From: Streptomyces rubrogriseus | Lineage (GTDB): Bacteria > Actinomycetota > Actinomycetes > Streptomycetales > Streptomycetaceae | NCBI RefSeq assembly: GCF_027947575.1 | Contig: NZ_CP116256.1 | Span: 3,658,001-3,722,000, forward strand | Direction: 5' to 3' | Length of the DNA stretch: 64,000 nt | Shown here: positions 19,822 through 27,304 of the stretch, one piece after another | Layout: every line of letters starts with the position of its first letter | Numbering within the stretch: the stretch's first letter is position 1 | Program-made: the position numbers and the translations under genes | The notes under the pieces: model-generated | Told to the model about the DNA's origin: nothing | Database searches by the model: none | What the model saw: the letters and a program-made list of their open reading frames with translations, nothing else

Positions 19822-19884
19822 GCCGGAAGTCTCGCAGGCCACGGAAGTGCCGCCGCTTCTTCTTCACTCGATCGGGTGAGCGAC

Positions 19885-19912
19885 CAATCCGGGCCGGGGC
19901 CCGCTCCGGATT
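19885..19912 (+). promoter_or_regulatory. SigK-type promoter of the fasciclin lipoprotein gene
   Basis: CCAATCC and CCGGAT are separated by exactly 15 bases. The same boxes and spacing occur upstream of sigK and of the FAD-oxidoreductase locus in this window; all three also share the extended GCTCCGGATT. Mycobacterial SigK promoters are recalled as CCATCC and CCGAAT, closely similar. The 5' untranslated region would be about 180 bases. Confidence 0.78.
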
Positions 19913-20097
19913 CCCCGTGTGAGGGAAGAACCGAGACCGTGCCGGCAGCGAACCGGCGGCTGACCCCGGAACCGGGTCGGCCGGCCGCCACGTAACGGCA
20001 CCGCGTACTCGGCGGCCCGCCGCACACCACTTCAGCTCCGCGTCACGACTTCGCGCCAACGCAGCCTTTGCGCTGCCCGTTTTCAGGGAGATCGTCC

Positions 20098-20757
20098 ATG
20101 AACGCCCGTATCCGCCGCTCCGCCGTCGCCGTCGTCGCGGCCGCCGTCCTGCCCTTGTCCCTGGCCGCCTGTTCCGACGACGGCGACAGCGGTTCCTCGG
20201 ACTCCGCGCAGGCGGCGTCGTCCGCCCCCGCGGCGACCGACGACCAGCCGGCCGACAGCTCCGGCGACATGGCGGGCTCCGACGAGCCGTTCGGCCCGGC
20301 CTGTTCCACGGTGCCGAAGGAGGGCGCCGGTTCCTTCGACGGCATGGCCAAGGACCCGGTCGCCACGGCCGCCTCGAACAATCCGGCCCTGTCCACGCTG
20401 GTGTCGGCGGTGAAGCAGGCCGGTCTCGTCGACACGCTCAACAACGCCGAGAACATCACCGTGTTCGCGCCCACCAACGACGCCTTCGCCAAGATTCCGA
20501 AGGCCGACCTGGACAAGGTCCTCAACGACAAGGAGATGCTCACCAACATCCTGACCTACCACGTCGTGGGCCAGAAGCTCGCGCCCGAGGACCTGGCGAA
20601 CGGCTCCTTCGAGACCCTGCAGAAGTCCAAGCTCACCACCTCGGGCTCGGACGAGTCCTACCAGGTCAACGACTCCGCCAAGGTCGTCTGCGGCAACGTG
20701 AAGACCGCCAACGCCAACGTCTACATCATCGACACCGTCCTCATGCCGAAGAGCTGA
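20098..20757 (+). CDS. Fasciclin-domain lipoprotein (MPT83-like)
   Basis: The 219-residue lipoprotein has a signal with lipobox LAAC ending at Cys25, and a Ser/Asp/Ala-rich spacer to about residue 75. One fasciclin (FAS1) domain covers about residues 90-218 ([58 protein letters not shown]). FAS1 domains mediate adhesion. The arrangement matches mycobacterial MPT83, whose gene is controlled by SigK. Here a SigK-type promoter lies upstream, and the sigK gene is about 6 kb away. The ATG has AGGGAG seven bases before it. Confidence 0.93.
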
Positions 20758-20798
20758 GGCGCGAGCGGGCGTGGCGGCCCGAGGGCCGGGGGAGCGGG

Positions 20799-20816
20799 TC
20801 GGGCCATGGCCCGCCC
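20799..20816 (+). terminator. Possible hairpin after the fasciclin gene
   Basis: CGGGCCATGGCCCG is a perfect palindrome within a GC-only stretch about 40 bases after the stop. It could act as a terminator. Apart from it the 261-base gap up to the flavodoxin-like gene shows no gene. Confidence 0.35.
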
Positions 20817-21018
20817 CCCGGCGGGGTGAGGGGGCCGGGCGGAACCGGCCCCTGGGCGGCGTACGCCGTCCGAGAAGGCGTTCCGCCCGGTCGAACCCGG
20901 GTCCGTCCGCCGGGGCGACGGCGAGATCACGCGTACCGGCGCGGCCGGACCGCCCGCACGTGCGCTTCCCGGGAGCTGCCGGGCAAGCAGCCGGCCCGAG
21001 CGGCCGCCCGGGGCGTGC

Positions 21019-21474
21019 TCAGTCGTCCATCAGCCCGGCGGCGAGCGTGGCCCCCAGCTCCCAGCAGGCCTCCAGGTCGGCCTTGCCGGGCTCCCCCGTC
21101 GCGTTCACCGCGGGCGCCGCACGCTGCCAGCCGAGCCCGGTCGTGACCGACTCGATGCCGCGCACCGCGCCCGTGGTGTCGCTGCCCCCGTGCACGTAGT
21201 AGCCGAAGGGACGGCCGCGCGTTTCCTCCAGGCACGGGTAGTAGACCTGGTCGAAGAAGTGCTTGAGCGCACCGGACATGTAACCGAGGTTGGCCGGGGT
21301 GCCCAGCAGGTACCCGTCGGCCTCCAGCACGTCCACGGCCGTGGCCGCCAGCGCCGCCCGCCGGACCACCCGCACCCCTTCGATCTCGGGCGCGGTCGCC
21401 CCGGACACGACGGACTCCAGCATCGCCTGGCAGTTCGGCGACGGCGTGTGATGCACGATCAGCAAAGTGGCCAC
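21019..21474 (-). CDS. Flavodoxin-like NAD(P)H-dependent reductase family protein
   Basis: The 151-residue protein has a flavodoxin-like fold. The N-terminal strand ATLLIVHHTPSPNCQAM is a phosphate-binding-loop region. ADGYLLGTPANLGYMSGALKHFFDQVYY corresponds to the conserved FMN-contact loop, and FGYYVHGGSDTTGAV to a third loop. The protein probably binds FMN and reduces an unknown acceptor. The GTG start places the first strand at residue 2; an ATG 12 codons upstream with a Gly/Arg-rich extension is an alternative. It lies 75 bases downstream of the ABC-F gene on the same strand. Confidence 0.82.
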   Translation of the reverse strand: MATLLIVHHTPSPNCQAMLESVVSGATAPEIEGVRVVRRAALAATAVDVLEADGYLLGTPANLGYMSGALKHFFDQVYYPCLEETRGRPFGYYVHGGSDTTGAVRGIESVTTGLGWQRAAPAVNATGEPGKADLEACWELGATLAAGLMDD

Positions 21475-21549
21475 ACCGGCAGCCTGCCGCCCGGCACCCC
21501 CCGACCGCAAACGGACACCATGGCGCCCGGGAGGTCCGCCGCCGACGGC

Positions 21550-23184
21550 CTACTCCTCCGGCGCCCCCGTCTCCGTCAGCTCTCCCTCGGTCAGCCGCAG
21601 CCAGCGGTCGACGCCGATCTCGCGCAGGAACCGCCGGTCGTGACTGACGACCACGAACGCACCCCGGTAGGAGTTCAGGGCGCTTTCCAACTGGCCCACG
21701 CCGACCAGGTCGAGGTTGTTCGTCGGCTCGTCCAGGAGCAGCAGGTGCGGCGCCGGTTCCGCGCACAGCACGCAGGCCAGCGTGGCCCGCAGCCGCTCGC
21801 CGCCGGAGAGCAGGCCGACCGGCAGGTGGGCGCGCGCACCCCGGAAGAGGAAGCGGGCGAGGAGGTTCATCCGCTCGGCCTCCGGCCGGCGCGGGGCGTA
21901 GGCGGCGAAGTTCTCGGCGACGGTGCGCTCGTCGTCCAGCAGGTCCAGCCGCTGGGAGAGGTAGGCGACCCGCCCGTCGGCGCGCCTGATGTCGCCGCCC
22001 TCCGGATCCAGGTCGCCGTCGACCAGGCGCAGCAGCGTGCTCTTGCCCGTGCCGTTGGCCCCGGTCAGCGCGATCCGCTCCGGGCCCCGGACCGTCAGGT
22101 CGACGCCCCGGTCCCCGAACACGTCCCTGTCGCCGAGCCGGATCCGCAGCCGCTCACCGAGGAAGAGGGTGCGTCCGGCGGGTACCCGGGTCTCGGGCAG
22201 GTCCAGCGTGATGCGCTGCTCCTCGCGCAGCGACCGCTCCGCCTCGTCCAGCCGTGCCTTCGCCTCACCGACCCGGTTGGCGTGGGTCTGCCCCGCCCGT
22301 CCCGCGGACTCCTGCGCCCCGCGCTTCATGTTGCCCGCGAAGATCCGGGGCAGCCCGGCGTTCTTGAGGTTGCGGGCGGCGTTGCTCGCCCGGCGGTCGG
22401 CGCGCTCGCGGGCCTGCTGCAACTCCCGCTTCTCCCGCTTCAGCTCCTGCTCGGCGTTGCGGACGTTCTTCTCGGCCACGTCCTGCTCGGCACGGACGGC
22501 CTCCTCGTACGCGGTGAAGTTGCCGCCGTGGAAGCGCAGCTCACCGCGGTCGAGCTCGGCGATGCGCTCCATGCGGTCGAGCAGCTCCCGGTCGTGGCTG
22601 ACCAGCAGCAGGCAGCCGTTGTAGTCCATCAGGACGTCCTGGAGCCTGCCGCGGGCCGCCACGTCGAGGTTGTTGGTGGGCTCGTCGAGGAGGAGCACGT
22701 CGGGCCGCTTCAGCAGTTGGGCGGCGAGTCCGAGGGAGACGATCTGGCCACCGCTCAGCGTGCTCAGCCGCCGGTCCGGGGCGAGGGCGCCGAGACCGAG
22801 GCGGTCGAGCTGGGCGCGGGTGCGCTCCTCGATGTCCCAGTCGTCGCCGATGGTGGCGAAGTGCTCCTCGGACACGTCACCGGACTCCACGGCGTCGATG
22901 GCCCGGATCACGGCGTCGACGCCGAGGACCTCGGCCACGGTGAGGCCACCCGTCAGGGGCAGGGCCTGCGGCAGGTGGCCGAGGACGCCGGAGACCGTGA
23001 CGGAGCCGCCGGTGGGCCGCAGCTCACCGGCGATCAGCTTGAGCAGGGTGGACTTCCCGGCACCGTTGGGGGCCACCAGGCCGGTGCGGCCCACGCCCAC
23101 GGTGAACGACAGATTCTGGAAGACGGGGGTGTCGTCGGGCCAGGAGAAGGACAGGTCGGAGCAGCGGACAGCGGCGTCGGACAT
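21550..23184 (-). CDS. ABC-F protein, probable antibiotic-resistance type ribosome protector
   Basis: The 544-residue cytosolic protein has two ABC ATPase domains and no membrane segments. Walker A motifs are GLVAPNGAGKST and ALTGANGTGKST; signature and Walker B sequences are LSGGQ with LLLDEPTNNLD and LSGGERL with LLLDEPTNNLD. The interdomain linker (about residues 225-310) is a charged helical hairpin whose tip would reach the peptidyl-transferase centre. Such proteins displace drugs such as lincosamides, pleuromutilins or streptogramins A from the ribosome. S. coelicolor encodes a comparable resistance ABC-F in this part of its chromosome. The start MSDAAVRCSDLSFSW follows a roughly 195-base leader containing a short ORF. 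Confidence 0.92.
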   Translation of the reverse strand: MSDAAVRCSDLSFSWPDDTPVFQNLSFTVGVGRTGLVAPNGAGKSTLLKLIAGELRPTGGSVTVSGVLGHLPQALPLTGGLTVAEVLGVDAVIRAIDAVESGDVSEEHFATIGDDWDIEERTRAQLDRLGLGALAPDRRLSTLSGGQIVSLGLAAQLLKRPDVLLLDEPTNNLDVAARGRLQDVLMDYNGCLLLVSHDRELLDRMERIAELDRGELRFHGGNFTAYEEAVRAEQDVAEKNVRNAEQELKREKRELQQARERADRRASNAARNLKNAGLPRIFAGNMKRGAQESAGRAGQTHANRVGEAKARLDEAERSLREEQRITLDLPETRVPAGRTLFLGERLRIRLGDRDVFGDRGVDLTVRGPERIALTGANGTGKSTLLRLVDGDLDPEGGDIRRADGRVAYLSQRLDLLDDERTVAENFAAYAPRRPEAERMNLLARFLFRGARAHLPVGLLSGGERLRATLACVLCAEPAPHLLLLDEPTNNLDLVGVGQLESALNSYRGAFVVVSHDRRFLREIGVDRWLRLTEGELTETGAPEE

Positions 23185-23310
23185 GAAGACGACCTCGTGG
23201 CGGTGAGGGGCAGCGAACAGAGCTCTGCCCGGAAAGGCGGAACGGGAAAAGGGGACGACGAAGGGGCCACTGCGACGGCGCTCGAACACGCCCGCTGCGG
23301 CCTACCGGAA

Positions 23311-23325
23311 CCGGGTCTCACCCGG
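23311..23325 (-). promoter_or_regulatory. Small hairpin overlapping the uORF stop in the ABC-F leader
   Basis: CCGGGT and ACCCGG pair across a three-base loop, with the uORF stop codon in the hairpin. A ribosome stalled on the uORF would keep it open. It may be one arm of an attenuator, but the rest of the leader was not folded. Confidence 0.4.
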
Positions 23326-23347
23326 AGATGTCGTCGTCACCCACCAT
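23318..23347 (-). CDS. Nine-codon upstream ORF (MVGDDDISG) in the ABC-F leader
   Basis: An ATG with a strong GAGGGAG ribosome site eight bases upstream opens a nine-residue frame, MVGDDDISG, followed by TGA. It lies about 135 bases upstream of the ABC-F start on the same strand. Short translated leaders of this kind control many resistance ABC-F genes by ribosome-mediated attenuation. The peptide itself is probably only a sensor of stalled translation. Confidence 0.6.
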   Translation of the reverse strand: MVGDDDISG

Positions 23348-23388
23348 GTCCGCGACTCCCTCGCTGCGCGATCAACGTCGCCACCAGC

Positions 23389-24149
23389 CTAGCAGCCGGG
23401 CTCCCGCACCGGCCCGCGTGCCGCGTCGGACGAGGCGGGCGGCGCCGACCGCAGCACCGTCGGCCCGTCCGCCGAGAGGGCCCGGGCGAACAGCTCGCAG
23501 GGCGCCGCTTCCGGGGCGAGCAGGTGGGCCACCGCCGCGGTCGCGGTGCGGTGCCAGCGGGCGCGGTGACGCAGCATGGCGTGGTCGCCGTTCTCCAGCA
23601 GCAGCATGCCCGCCCGGGCCCCGGCGGCCCGGGCCCGGGCGACGTAGGCGGCCGACTCGCCGGGATCGGTGACGCGGTCCCGGCCGCCGTGCAGCACGAG
23701 AAGGGCCCGGTCCCGGAGCTGGGCGACGGGCTCCCCGGCGGGCACCAGGGCGCGAGCGCCACCACGCCGCGTACCGGGCCGGCGTCCGCCGCGCGCAGGG
23801 CCGCCCGGCCGCCCATGGAGTGACCGAGCAGCACCACCGGCACGTCGCCGACGAGGCCGTGCAGCTCGGCGAGGGCCCGCCGGGCGTCCCGCAGGGGGTC
23901 CTCGGCGGCGCCGTTCCAGCCTCGGTTGCGGTAGCGGACCTGGCCGAGGAGGACGTCGTCGCGGCCGGTGGCCGCCTCCAGCGCCCGCAGGAACGGGTGC
24001 ATCCGCAGCGCCGCGAGCTGCCAGGGGCGCGCCGCGCTGCGGCTCTCCGCCCGGCCGCCGTGCAGCACCAGCACGGCCGCGCGCGTCCGGGGCGGCCGGC
24101 GCCTCACCCGCAGTGCCCCTGCCCTCGACGGATCGTCCTCCGCGCCCAT
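23389..24149 (-). pseudogene. Alpha/beta hydrolase split by a one-base frameshift
   Basis: The first part starts MGAEDDPSRAG and holds AAVLVLHGGRAESR, the nucleophile elbow GHSMGG and VVALAPWCP. The family's second half (RALLVLHGGRDRVTDPGESAAYVARARAAG with catalytic Asp, then LLLENGDHAMLRHR with catalytic His) is in another frame. The break is at about position 23740, where one base appears lost in a GC run after APWCP. Both halves together would make a normal hydrolase of about 250 residues. It could be a real mutation or a sequencing error. Confidence 0.8.
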
Positions 24150-24250
24150 GCCGGCCCCTTCCCTTCCGCTTCCTTCATCTCCCCGCAACCTGTGATCCGT
24201 TGCCGTGCCGCCCCGGGACCGGCGGTCGCCGAAACGGTCCTCGACGCCGT

Positions 24251-24278
24251 CCAATCCGCCCACCCCACGGCTCCGGAT
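24251..24278 (+). promoter_or_regulatory. SigK-type promoter of the FAD-oxidoreductase locus
   Basis: CCAATCC-N15-CCGGAT lies 44 bases upstream of the FAD-oxidoreductase start. Over 31 bases it matches the sigK promoter at 23 or more positions, including CGGCTCCGGATTAC. The promoter is intact although the genes it serves are broken. Confidence 0.8.
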
Positions 24279-24322
24279 TACCCACGCAAGTGTCGATCAC
24301 AGTGGGGTGGAGGTACAGCGAA

Positions 24323-25207
24323 ATGCCGCGAGCGTCAGGCGAGGGAGCACGTCGCACGGCCGTCGTCGGCAGTGGAGTGGCGGGACTGACCGCCGCGTAC
24401 GTACTGGGCCGCCAACACCGCGTCACCCTCTACGAGGCCGACGACCGCCTCGGCGGGCACGCCCACACCCACGACCTGACGGCGCCCGACGGCCGTGTCC
24501 ACCGGGTCGACTCGGGCTTCATCGTGCACAACCACCGCACTTACCCGAACCTGTTGCGCCTCTTCGACGAACTCGGGGTCGCCACCCAGGAGTCGGAGAT
24601 GAGCGTGTCGGTACGGTGCGAGGGCTGCGGCATGGAGTACGCCGGTGCTCGCGGCCCCGCCGGACTGCTCGCCCGCCCGCGCAACGCCCTGCACGGTCCC
24701 TACCTGCGCATGCTCGCCCAGGTGCCGCGGTTTCACCGCGCCGCCCGCAGGTTGCTCACCGAGGACGCCGACCGGGCCCTGACACTCGGCGGGTTCCTGG
24801 ACCGCGAGGGCTTCTCGCCGTAATTCCGCGCCCACTTCATGACGCCCGTCGTCTCCGCCGCCTGGTCCTGCGACGCCGCCACGGCCCTGCGCTACCCGGC
24901 CGCCCACCTGTTCCGCTTCCTGCACCACCACGGCATGCTCGCCGTCGGCGGCTCCCCGGTCTTGCGCACGGTCACCGGCGGCTCCCGCTCCTACGTCGAC
25001 CGGATCGCCGAGCGGCTGCCCGACGTGCGCACCGCCACCCCGGTCCGCACGGTGACCCGGCACGCGGACGGCGTGGACGTCACCGCCGCCGACGGCACCA
25101 CCGACACCTACGACCACCTGGTGATCGCCGTCCACCCCGACCAGGCACTGGAACTGCTCGCCGATCCGACGCCCGGCGAGAAGGAGGTCCTCGGCGCCTT
25201 CCGGTAG
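24323..25207 (+). pseudogene. FAD-dependent oxidoreductase fragment with in-frame stop and lost 3' end
   Basis: The reading frame starts MPRASGEGARRTAVVGSGVAGLTAAYVLG, a dinucleotide-binding motif, followed by YEADDRLGGHAHTHDL, typical of the NAD(P)/FAD-binding family (Rv0449c-like in mycobacteria). After residue 166 a TAA interrupts ...REGFSP | FRAHFMTPVV...; the flanks continue in the same frame, so a single change such as TAC to TAA explains it. The second segment runs to ...KEVLGAF-R and stops, about 130-150 residues before the family's normal end. The missing part coincides with a junction to DUF1295 sequence, indicating a deletion. Confidence 0.85.
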
Positions 25208-25213
25208 CGGCGG

Positions 25214-25851
25214 CCGGGCAGGGCGACCCCGGACGCCGGACGCTGGTGGCGGCCCTGACCGGCGTATGGGGTCTGCGGCTGGCCGCGCACATCGCCCGGC
25301 GCGGCCGGGGCCACGGCGAGGACCCGCGCTACGACGCGATGCTGGCCAAGGCCCGCGGCAACCGGAACCTCTACGCCCTGCGCATGGTCTACCTGCTCCA
25401 GGGCGCCCTGGTGTGGCTGGTGTCGCTGCCGGTGCAGGCCGCCTCGTACGGGCCGGGGCCCCCGTCGGTCCTGGCCTGGGCCGGAGCGGTCGTGTGGACG
25501 GTCGGGCTGGCCTTCGAGGCCGTGGGGGACGCCCAGTTGGCCCGGTTCAAGGCCGACCCCGCCCACCGGGGTCGCGTCATGGACCGCGGACGGTGGAGCT
25601 GGACCCGGCACCCCAACTACTTCGGCGACTTCTGCGTCTGGTGGGGCCTGTTCCTGATCGCCTGCGACGCGGGCCCCGCGGCCGCCGCGGTGTCCGTCGT
25701 CTCCCCGCTGGTGATGAGCTTCCTGCTGATCGGCGGCAGCGGGAAGCGGCTGCTCGAGCGGCACATGGCGGACCGGCCGGGTTGGGCCGAGTACGCGGCG
25801 CGCACCAGTGGCTTCTTCCCACGGCCGCCGCGCCGGTCCCGGTCCGCGTAG
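25214..25851 (+). pseudogene. DUF1295 (steroid 5-alpha-reductase-like) membrane protein, N-terminally truncated
   Basis: An open frame of about 205 residues matches the C-terminal three quarters of DUF1295 proteins. It contains WGLRLAAHIARRGRGHGEDPRY, several membrane helices, RVMDRGRWSWTRHPNYFGDFCVWWGLF and a GGSGKRLLERHMADRPGWAEYAARTSGFFP ending. The first 60 or so residues and a start with a ribosome site are absent. Sequence recognisable as DUF1295 (GDPGRRTLVAAL) begins within about ten bases of the end of the FAD-oxidoreductase fragment. A GTG near 25246 might still allow translation. In mycobacteria this gene follows a DUF1365 gene and a cyclopropane-synthase-like gene, both missing here. 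Confidence 0.83.
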
Positions 25852-25891
25852 GGCTCGGCCGGCGGGGGTGGGGGCCGCGGCCCCCACCCCG

Positions 25892-26644
25892 TCAGGCCGG
25901 CATGCCCAGCAGCGCGATCGGGTCGGAGGTCGGCTGCTTCGAACCGCCGGCCGGCTCGACCGTGATGCCCACACCCGCCGCACCGTCGACGGCGCCGTCC
26001 ATCAGCACCGCCTGACTGGTGCTGCCGGGATCCATCAGGCCCGCCGAGCGCATCGTGCCGTGGTCGTCGAACCAGAGCTGGTACACCTTGCCCCGCGGCG
26101 GCTCGGCCATGCCGGAGGCCAGGAAGACCGCCCGGTCCTGGCGTTCGGAGACGACCAGCGTGCCGCTCGCCCCGTCCGCCAGCCGCGCCGTGCGGGACTC
26201 GGCGTCCGGCGCGGTCAGCACCCCGGCGAGGGTCTCGGCCCGCCGCTCGGCCTGCGCGGCCCGCTGCCCGGCGTCCTGGGCCCGCTCGTACTGCCACACC
26301 GCCGTGCCGCCGAGCCCCGCCGCGGCTGCCACGCAGGCCGCCAGCGCCCACCTGGCCAGGCCGCGTCCCCGGGACGCGACGCGGCGTGCCTTCTCCGCCG
26401 TGCCACCGCCCGGCGGGACCTGGCGCACCGTGGTGACGCGGTGCAGCACCCGGTCCCTGAGCGCGGGAGCGGGGGCGACCGTCGCGGCCAGCCCCAGCCG
26501 GGCCGTCGCGGCGGCGAACTCCAGGGCCTCCTGCTCGCAGGTGGCGCAGCCCGCCAGATGGCGTTCGAAGGCCGCCCGCTCGTAGTCGGGCAGCGCGTGC
26601 AGGGCGTAGGCGCCCGTCAGGCTGTGCAGGTCCTCGGTGCGCAT
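25892..26644 (-). CDS. rskA: Anti-sigma factor RskA (zinc-associated type)
   Basis: The 250-residue membrane protein has a cytosolic anti-sigma domain at residues 1-90 with the HxxxCxxC motif (His29, Cys33, Cys36). One membrane helix follows at about 95-116. The extracytosolic RskA domain (VVSERQDRAVFLASGM, then KVYQLWFDDHGTMRSAGLM) resembles mycobacterial RskA. It holds SigK inactive until regulated proteolysis. Its ATG overlaps the sigK stop; a GTG one codon earlier is an alternative. It converges on the DUF1295 remnant. Confidence 0.92.
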   Translation of the reverse strand: MRTEDLHSLTGAYALHALPDYERAAFERHLAGCATCEQEALEFAAATARLGLAATVAPAPALRDRVLHRVTTVRQVPPGGGTAEKARRVASRGRGLARWALAACVAAAAGLGGTAVWQYERAQDAGQRAAQAERRAETLAGVLTAPDAESRTARLADGASGTLVVSERQDRAVFLASGMAEPPRGKVYQLWFDDHGTMRSAGLMDPGSTSQAVLMDGAVDGAAGVGITVEPAGGSKQPTSDPIALLGMPA

Positions 26645-27228
26645 CACGCGCTCACCCCCAGGCAGTCACGGAGCCGGATGAGACCGTCGCGCAGCCGCGT
26701 CTTGACCGTGCCGAGCGGCAGCGCGAGCGCCTCGGCCACCTGCCGGTAGGTCAGGCCGCGGTAGTAGGCGAGGGTCACGGACTGGCGCTGGATGTCGGTC
26801 AGGGTGCGCAGACAGCGCCGCACCTGCTCCCGCTCCAGACGGGACTCCACCTGCTCGGTCACCTCGTCGTACTCGGGTGTCCGGTCGAGCAGCGCCGCCC
26901 TGTGGTCACGGGCCGCGGCGGCCTCCACCGACCGCACCCGGTCCACGGCCCGCCGGTGGGCCAGGGTCAGGACCCAGTTGATCACCGTGCCGCGCTCCGG
27001 ACGGTAGCGGGGCGCCGTGCGCCACACCTCCACCAGCACCTCCTGCGCGACCTCCTCCGACTGCGCCTGGTCGCGCAGCACCGCCCGGACGACCCCCAGC
27101 ACGGACCCCGCCACCGCGTCGTACACGGCGGCGAAGGAGTCCTCATCGCCCAGGGCAACCTCCCGGATCAACTGCTGCAGATCGGGCTGGGACGATGGAT
27201 TTCTGCCGATGTGTACGGCTTCCTTCAC
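26644..27228 (-). CDS. sigK: ECF RNA polymerase sigma factor, SigK type
   Basis: The 194-residue ECF sigma factor has region 2 at about residues 22-90 (AVYDAVAGSVLGVVRAVL, then SEEVAQEVLVEVWRTAPRYRPERG). Region 4 is at about 138-190 (TDIQRQSVTLAYYRGLTYRQVAEALALPLGTVKTRLRDGLIRLRDCL). The GTG start is preceded by GGAG at eight bases. The partner anti-sigma gene follows with an overlap. A promoter with the same boxes and spacing as those of two other loci in this window lies 48 bases upstream, so the gene is probably autoregulated. The SigK assignment rests on the RskA partner and the conserved neighbourhood. Confidence 0.92.
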   Translation of the reverse strand: MKEAVHIGRNPSSQPDLQQLIREVALGDEDSFAAVYDAVAGSVLGVVRAVLRDQAQSEEVAQEVLVEVWRTAPRYRPERGTVINWVLTLAHRRAVDRVRSVEAAAARDHRAALLDRTPEYDEVTEQVESRLEREQVRRCLRTLTDIQRQSVTLAYYRGLTYRQVAEALALPLGTVKTRLRDGLIRLRDCLGVSA

Positions 27229-27276
27229 GACGGTTGCTCCAAAGAATGCGCGACGGGCGGGGGATGTCCCCGCGTA

Positions 27277-27304
27277 ATCCGGAGCCGCGCGGCCTGCGGA
27301 TTGG
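27277..27304 (-). promoter_or_regulatory. SigK-type promoter of sigK-rskA
   Basis: On the minus strand CCAATCC and CCGGAT are separated by 15 bases and followed by the sigK start 48 bases downstream. It is nearly identical to the promoter at the FAD-oxidoreductase locus, which supports autoregulation. Confidence 0.8.

Follow-up and report, generated by a model that had tools for sequence, protein, structure and literature searches.

The DNA studied here, called the window, is a 64,000-nucleotide stretch of the Streptomyces rubrogriseus contig NZ_CP116256.1 (positions 3,658,001 to 3,722,000), and it carries sigK and rskA, the genes for an extracytoplasmic function (ECF) sigma factor and its anti-sigma factor, together with a fasciclin lipoprotein gene and a flavin adenine dinucleotide (FAD) oxidoreductase locus. 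We read the window as the core of an ECF19 SigK-RskA regulon, with predicted promoters at sigK-rskA, the fasciclin gene, the FAD operon and, beyond the window, a molybdopterin oxidoreductase (MOX) gene, and we put the probability of this reading at roughly 80%. Sequence comparisons across the genus indicate that, in this Streptomyces clade, CGGAT has replaced CGAAT as the -10 box of the regulon members.

An earlier note on this DNA had reported the pattern CCAATCC-N15-CCGGAT, with a shared extension and a constant 15-base gap, ahead of sigK-rskA, the FAD locus and the fasciclin gene. All three exact sites were located, with GCTCCGGATT common to them and 15 bases between the boxes each time; the first site starts at 19884, one base earlier than that reader had placed it. 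The whole genome (8,411,861 bases in one contig) contains three exact matches, all of them inside the window, and seven more places match with one mismatch, while letter composition alone would give 0.002 exact matches per window and 0.28 per genome. The same pattern read backwards has no match in the genome. Across 150 genomes of the genus the exact motif occurs 53 times, in 31 genomes, and the reversed pattern once. These genome counts and reversed-pattern controls rule out a chance motif for the exact sites. When up to three mismatches are allowed, the window holds 26 matches against 18 +/- 4.4 in shuffled sequence, and 7 of 100 shuffles score equally high; such a count is unremarkable, and the weight therefore lies with the exact sites alone.

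The motif was then examined in 80 sigK loci taken from named records, 79 of them Streptomyces and one titled Actinobacteria bacterium. At least 11 of the 13 motif bases are present upstream of sigK in 75 of these loci and all 13 in 23, and the spacer is 15 in 79 of the 80 best matches; random 150-bp windows from the same loci, true sites included, reach 11 bases in 28 of 1,600 cases. Because the first base of CCGGAT varies, the core motif is taken as CCAATCC-N16-CGGAT. This core has exactly four matches in the S. rubrogriseus genome. The fourth lies 77 kb from the sigK promoter and begins 35 nt ahead of the GTG start of MOX (532 residues, PF00174, E 1.8e-43), which falls 7 bases past the -10 box. 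In many relatives the same MOX directly precedes the fasciclin gene; here the two are 84 kb apart, and a promoter is kept at both. The three sites first proposed are real, and the regulon would extend further, to a fourth, intact promoter beyond the window.

Features of the SigK-RskA locus and related sites in the genome (plain numbers are window positions; G000:C1 denotes genome coordinates)
Feature	Position	Strand	Basis
Predicted SigK-type promoter of fasciclin gene (-35 CCAATCC, N15, -10 CCGGAT)	19884..19911	+	motif match
Predicted SigK-type promoter of FAD-oxidoreductase operon	24251..24278	+	motif match
Predicted SigK-type promoter of sigK-rskA (putative autoregulation)	27277..27304	-	motif match
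Fourth predicted SigK-type site, outside window	G000:C1:3762642-3762669 (L142 2143-2170)		core-pattern match
sigK, ECF19-type sigma factor, 194 aa, GTG start at 27228	26644..27228	-	Pfam and structure match
rskA, anti-sigma factor, 250 aa, RskA_N and RskA_C	25892..26644	-	Pfam PF22618, PF10099
Fasciclin (FAS1) lipoprotein, 219 aa, signal peptide, lipobox ending LAAC	20098..20757	+	PF02469, E 2.7e-35
FAD-oxidoreductase pseudogene, UfaD-like by domain, last third missing	24323..25206	+	Pfam amine-oxidoreductase part
Deletion junction	25206..25207	.	alignment to L043 (S. hyderabadensis)
DUF1295 (steroid-reductase-like) remnant without N-terminus	25207..25851	+	Pfam
Alpha/beta-hydrolase-like gene, divergent from FAD gene	23337..24149	-	alignment to relatives
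SigK2, SigK-like paralogue, 63% identical to SigK	G000:C1:2362136-2362654 (L141)		similarity search

The target set was counted across 117 loci, made up of the window, the locus of the fourth site, the SigK loci from the 80 named records and 35 further loci of the genus; 116 of them contain at least one of the counted genes. A site was accepted if it had at least 10 of the 11 fixed bases and lay within 400 nt upstream. By this measure a site stands ahead of 103 of 108 sigK, 43 of 51 FAD, 56 of 60 MOX and 21 of 79 fasciclin genes. A further 50 fasciclin genes follow a site-bearing MOX, so that 71 of 79 have either their own site or such a MOX. Reversed boxes, searched for in the same 117 loci, were found at none of the sigK, FAD, MOX or fasciclin genes. 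The check that had been suggested, to look for the motif near fasciclin and sigK genes across Streptomyces, therefore comes out in its favor. The sites comprise 97 distinct sequences for sigK, 43 for FAD, 52 for MOX and 21 for fasciclin, although the loci are not all independent, as L120 and L160 come from one record and ten site sequences are present twice. An earlier count over 330 nt left 12 fasciclin genes without a promoter, and with 400 nt, on a slightly smaller locus set, eight. Sigma, FAD and MOX genes, and a few others, stand behind the motif, which rules out its being confined to fasciclin-bearing units. Start codons follow the -10 box at a median of 33 nt (sigK), 52 nt (FAD), 153 nt (fasciclin) and 7 nt (MOX), and the MOX value would suit leaderless messages. 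In the 150 genomes, among the matches listed (63 SigK rows with identities of 67% or more), 16 genomes have a core site that lies at a fasciclin or sigK gene or no more than 20 kb from one, and all 16 belong to the 17 whose SigK is at least 79% identical.

The sigma and anti-sigma genes were compared with known families. SigK contains Sigma70_r2 and Sigma70_r4, regions 2 and 4 only. Among solved structures it comes nearest to that of M. tuberculosis SigK (4nqw, E 7.9e-44), followed by R. sphaeroides RpoE (3.8e-20). Both of its cysteines align with those of M. tuberculosis SigK, and they are invariant in 131 of 131 SigK and 21 of 21 paralogue rows. The start of rskA and the stop of sigK overlap by one base. 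Anti-sigma factors of the AS19-1 group carry the helix motifs HTLAGAYALDAL and LDDERAAFERHL (PMC7406223), and the window RskA has HSLTGAYALHAL and LPDYERAAFERHL, which agree with them. The sigma regions, the cysteine pair and the adjacent anti-sigma gene all place the pair in ECF19 SigK and AS19-1 (RskA), and Pfam, the structure match and the helix motifs bear out the proposed kinship with the tuberculosis SigK/RskA. In mycobacteria RskA inhibits SigK and can also activate it (PMC7509140). The name SigK is already used in Streptomyces for SCO6520, which has only the name in common with the factor described here: it is a SigB-like group 3 sigma factor under BldG/SCO7328 control and not an ECF factor (PMC9205884).

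All four sites of this genome have the -10 box CGGAT, and none has CGAAT, the mycobacterial SigK consensus. Most of the more distant SigK genes of the genus (about 65-79% identical) have CCAATCC- or CCCATCC-N16-CGAAT upstream, a few of them having no recognisable box, and where a longer stretch was covered fasciclin and FAD genes adjoin the CGAAT-type sigK. The CGAAT form was also matched in 78 of 296 genomes of other families of the class. Thirty of these class-level loci were inspected; in nine, from four families, the site lies directly ahead of a fasciclin, MOX, FAD, DipZ or SigK gene, and in the other 21 no such gene lies directly behind it. Because most of the more distant SigK genes and the other families of the class use CGAAT, this is probably the older state. 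The proposal that the regulon is old and shared gains from the same data, since the motif recurs across Streptomyces and its CGAAT form directly precedes members of these gene families in four further families of the class.

The shift seems to have involved sigK and its targets together. In 102 of 108 within-locus comparisons, the -10 box at sigK has the same middle base as that of a FAD, MOX, fasciclin or chaplin promoter (sigK-target pairs: G-G 73, A-A 29; disagreeing, A-G 4, T-G 2). On a SigK tree of 116 rows, including 45 picked randomly from the named rows, the base at sigK's own promoter needs at least four changes. The majority of G rows group in a single clade (50 rows, Shimodaira-Hasegawa-like approximate likelihood ratio support 85), which includes the window, while the G rows L107, L117 and L119 fall outside it on unresolved branches. 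A single SigK residue behind the change was looked for and rejected: among 81 G-type, 34 A-type and 17 SigK2 rows, with the mixed rows L144 and L159 left out, many positions differ and none stands out.

The paralogue SigK2 is found in this genome and in many others of the genus, and its presence tracks the -10 state. Of 18 SigK2-clade loci, 14 have a recognisable site at the gene or next to it, in every case CGAAT and never CGGAT; the SigK2 gene of this genome, unlike most orthologues examined, has no recognisable CGAAT promoter. In a comparison of 60 SigK rows, from which rows with T or without a box were dropped and to which three genomes contribute two rows each, the genome has SigK2 in 23 of 24 CGGAT rows and in 1 of 36 CGAAT rows. 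In 58 of 60 rows, then, G goes with SigK2 and A with its absence, the exceptions being L109, with G and no SigK2, and G122, with A and SigK2. SigK2 was scored as absent in 25 A-type genomes because one match alone reached E <= 1e-40 among the best 21 candidates per genome, in nine rows from a separate search, and in G065 and G053 from where their second gene falls in the tree; L114 was counted as SigK2 though it is 74% identical to the query, and L090 lies outside the SigK2 search.

This pattern suggests insulation of the duplicates: once two SigK-type factors were present, the SigK regulon may have moved in concert from CGAAT to CGGAT, preventing cross-firing, while SigK2 kept CGAAT. Two genomes inside the CGGAT clade but without SigK2, G059 and G103, have CGAAT at sigK and CGGAT at the targets. 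L109, sister to G103, speaks against the pattern, with CGGAT in a genome that lacks SigK2. Independent pairs of -10 and SigK2 changes on the tree number two on supported branches and four on all branches, where a sign test is powerless. Because there are only two to four such changes, insulation is offered as a hypothesis and not a result, one that we hold tentatively and with the odds somewhat against it. If it is true, promoters would have been rewired naturally across a whole regulon, in a way that keeps paralogous ECF sigma factors apart and can be traced in living species. The concerted -10 switch beside a paralogue that keeps CGAAT offers a chance to study in nature how sigma factors that arose by duplication become orthogonal.

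The fasciclin gene stands behind its site (19884-20757), as in the mycobacterial regulon. Its product, an adhesion-type lipoprotein that would be secreted, has a signal peptide with what we take to be a lipobox. Among solved structures four entries of TGFBI, a multi-domain protein, score best, and the best bacterial match is MPT70 (1nyo, E 1.4e-35, residues 66-218). The FAD operon is in a different state. Its first gene has an in-frame stop at 24821-24823 and ends near position 268 of the 443-position Pfam model. Aligned with S. hyderabadensis (L043), the window is 95.3% identical up to 25206 and 91.4% from 25207 on, and 3,900 bp of L043 are absent at the junction 25206|25207. The lost stretch holds the final part of the FAD gene, DUF1365, a pair of methyltransferase genes of the CMAS family and the beginning of DUF1295. 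No match across the junction was found in 30 other genomes (18 of the genus and 12 of the order), and DUF1365 has no match anywhere in this genome. Given the in-frame stop and the 3.9-kb deletion, the lipid branch is dead in this strain, and sigK-rskA, fasciclin and MOX are the intact members, although the promoter ahead of the broken operon is retained. The divergent hydrolase gene has a one-base gap (a frameshift) relative to its relatives, which may be decay beyond the FAD operon or a sequencing error. The earlier note was right about the sites and about the fasciclin protein, the FAD domain and the RskA-type anti-sigma factor beside sigK, but it missed the pseudogene and overstated how much of the regulon works in this strain, as the FAD operon is broken and DUF1365 gone.

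By analogy with the family, RskA would hold SigK at the membrane until an envelope or redox signal releases it, a kind of signal suggested because the SigK cysteine pair is invariant. Freed SigK would then transcribe its own operon and the fasciclin, FAD and MOX targets. The output may, less certainly, be protection from damage by oxidation and perhaps by light, given that relatives have an FAD-DUF1365-Cfa operon whose domain make-up matches UfaD, UfaO and UfaM of Rhodobacter. These three proteins make furan fatty acids (PMC7380195), and in the relatives' operon the FAD protein pairs with UfaD, DUF1365 with UfaO and the methyltransferase with UfaM. This set (FAD desaturase, DUF1365 and Cfa-type methyltransferase) is present at the domain level in L043 and incomplete in S. 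rubrogriseus. Under photooxidative stress in R. sphaeroides the fasciclin gene RSP_1409, RSP_1090/1091 and cfaS go up (PMC7074977), and light induces the fasciclin genes mpk83 and mpk70 in M. kansasii (PMC9861118). In an actinobacterium exposed to ultraviolet light RskA drops and then recovers (PMC8965627). Taken together, these findings make us favor an oxidative or light-driven membrane response where the signal is concerned, a guess about as likely to be right as wrong.

Several observations weigh against the SigK-RskA reading or its proposed signal. Sites are missing at 5 of 108 sigK, 8 of 51 FAD and 4 of 60 MOX genes, and 8 of 79 fasciclin genes have neither a site nor a site-bearing MOX. 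In the 150 genomes, 53 of 104 core matches and 22 of 53 exact matches lie away from fasciclin or sigK. The six -10 comparisons that disagree all have A or T at sigK and G at the target. The suggested oxidative or light signal draws on other organisms: the induction of mpk70/83 in M. kansasii is weak (3-6 fold) and dipZ does not respond (PMC9861118), and R. capsulatus is described as having no homologues of RSP_1090/1091 or the fasciclin gene, though its RpoE is nearer to SigK than R. sphaeroides RpoE is (PMC7074977).

The sites might instead be read by another ECF sigma factor, above all by SigK2, in which case the SigK set would be different or overlapping. SigK2 is a close paralogue in the same genome, and the promoters of its orthologues share the -35 box and spacing (CCAATCC or CCCATCC-N16-CGAAT). 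However, the exact -35 sites recognised at the SigK2-clade loci all carry CGAAT, whereas the targets here carry CGGAT like the sigK promoter, and many single-copy genomes, such as G126, G072 and G066 (one match at 1e-40), keep the sigK site with fasciclin and FAD genes adjacent, so we regard this explanation as quite improbable. It would be harder still to see the sites as operators or other conserved DNA, such as a repressor site. The promoter assignment does come from sequence, which leaves such an idea some room, but orientation and spacing are fixed, the -35 and -10 boxes lie at an ECF-like distance, the MOX distance is compatible with a leaderless transcript, and one site stands ahead of the sigma gene itself; the chance of an operator is very slight.

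The regulon could also be real but vestigial in this strain, with the FAD operon lost, the hydrolase frameshifted and the rest drifting. The in-frame stop, the 3.9-kb deletion, the one-base gap and the lack of any other DUF1365 gene would all fit such decay, but the sigK, rskA, fasciclin and MOX frames are open and all four promoters have perfect core boxes, which makes it unlikely.

Compared with the SigK-RskA system of M. tuberculosis (mpt70/mpt83/dipZ; Rv0449c-sigK-rskA), the Streptomyces regulon has a homologous sigma/anti-sigma pair and a fasciclin target in common. Beside the M. tuberculosis sigK lies an FAD/DUF1365/Cfa/DUF1295 cluster, and its counterpart is broken in this strain. The -35 box and the spacing match those in class-level relatives. 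The differences are the -10 box, CGGAT instead of CGAAT, the inclusion of MOX in the Streptomyces regulon, and the Streptomyces sigK having its own site directly upstream. In M. tuberculosis, SigK is reported to be autoregulated through the Rv0449c promoter, and the promoter just ahead of sigK not to be SigK-regulated (PMC7509140). None of the four sites in this genome has dipZ behind it. The likeness to M. tuberculosis that had been claimed therefore holds for the sigma pair and fasciclin and fails for the -10 box and for the site of sigK itself. The photooxidative RpoE-ChrR (ECF11) regulon of R. sphaeroides (ufaD/ufaO/ufaM, RSP_1409) has similar target functions, namely an FAD desaturase-like protein, DUF1365 and a Cfa-type methyltransferase (here in the strain's relatives) and a fasciclin protein. 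It belongs to another ECF group with another type of anti-sigma factor, ChrR, which needs zinc (PMC7406223), and the excerpts of literature on it that were examined make no mention of MOX.

The conservation of SigK sites among Actinobacteria has already been reported (Veyrier 2008, as cited in PMC7509140), which qualifies the statement that nothing of the kind was described; for Streptomyces itself the statement stands as far as the titles and abstract openings of related literature go, where no description of the regulon was found. A limited search for fasciclin with ECF sigma factors in Streptomyces also found nothing, which does not establish absence from print. What is new here is the set of Streptomyces targets, MOX among them, together with the finding that this strain has lost the lipid branch, the concerted change of -10 box beside a paralogue, and the insulation hypothesis. 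The stimuli of SigK-RskA in mycobacteria are described as obscure (PMC9861118), and the purpose of the fasciclin antigens is obscure for that reason. Streptomyces, with many harmless and tractable species and the same regulon, makes this question testable, and the co-targets, namely a redox enzyme and an operon predicted to make furan fatty acids, point to oxidative membrane damage.

Some other genes also stand behind the motif. Hydrolases homologous to the divergent gene of the window (58-68% identical) do so in three other loci. A DipZ-like gene with DsbD_TM and thioredoxin-like domains does so in one genome only (G059, L146), and it recalls the mycobacterial mpt83-dipZ-mpt70 triad. Chaplin-like genes (Pfam ChpA-C, E 1.7e-28) follow the motif in two clustered loci, and L139 has a site beside another. 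The DipZ-like and chaplin-like genes (L146/G059, L139, L148, L113) hint at a larger SigK regulon; chaplins are surface proteins of aerial hyphae, and as targets they would extend the regulon to that surface. Far from sigK and fasciclin, exact motif copies with identical spacers occur at G069:C1:302841, 307511 and 340204 and at G096:C6:1029318 and 1043627, and may belong to a repeated element or a family of genes. A near-identical CCAATCC...GATGCGGAT string in G013, G014, G061, G063, G102 and G110 is probably a chance match in conserved coding sequence, and matches of this type account for part of the unexplained sites.

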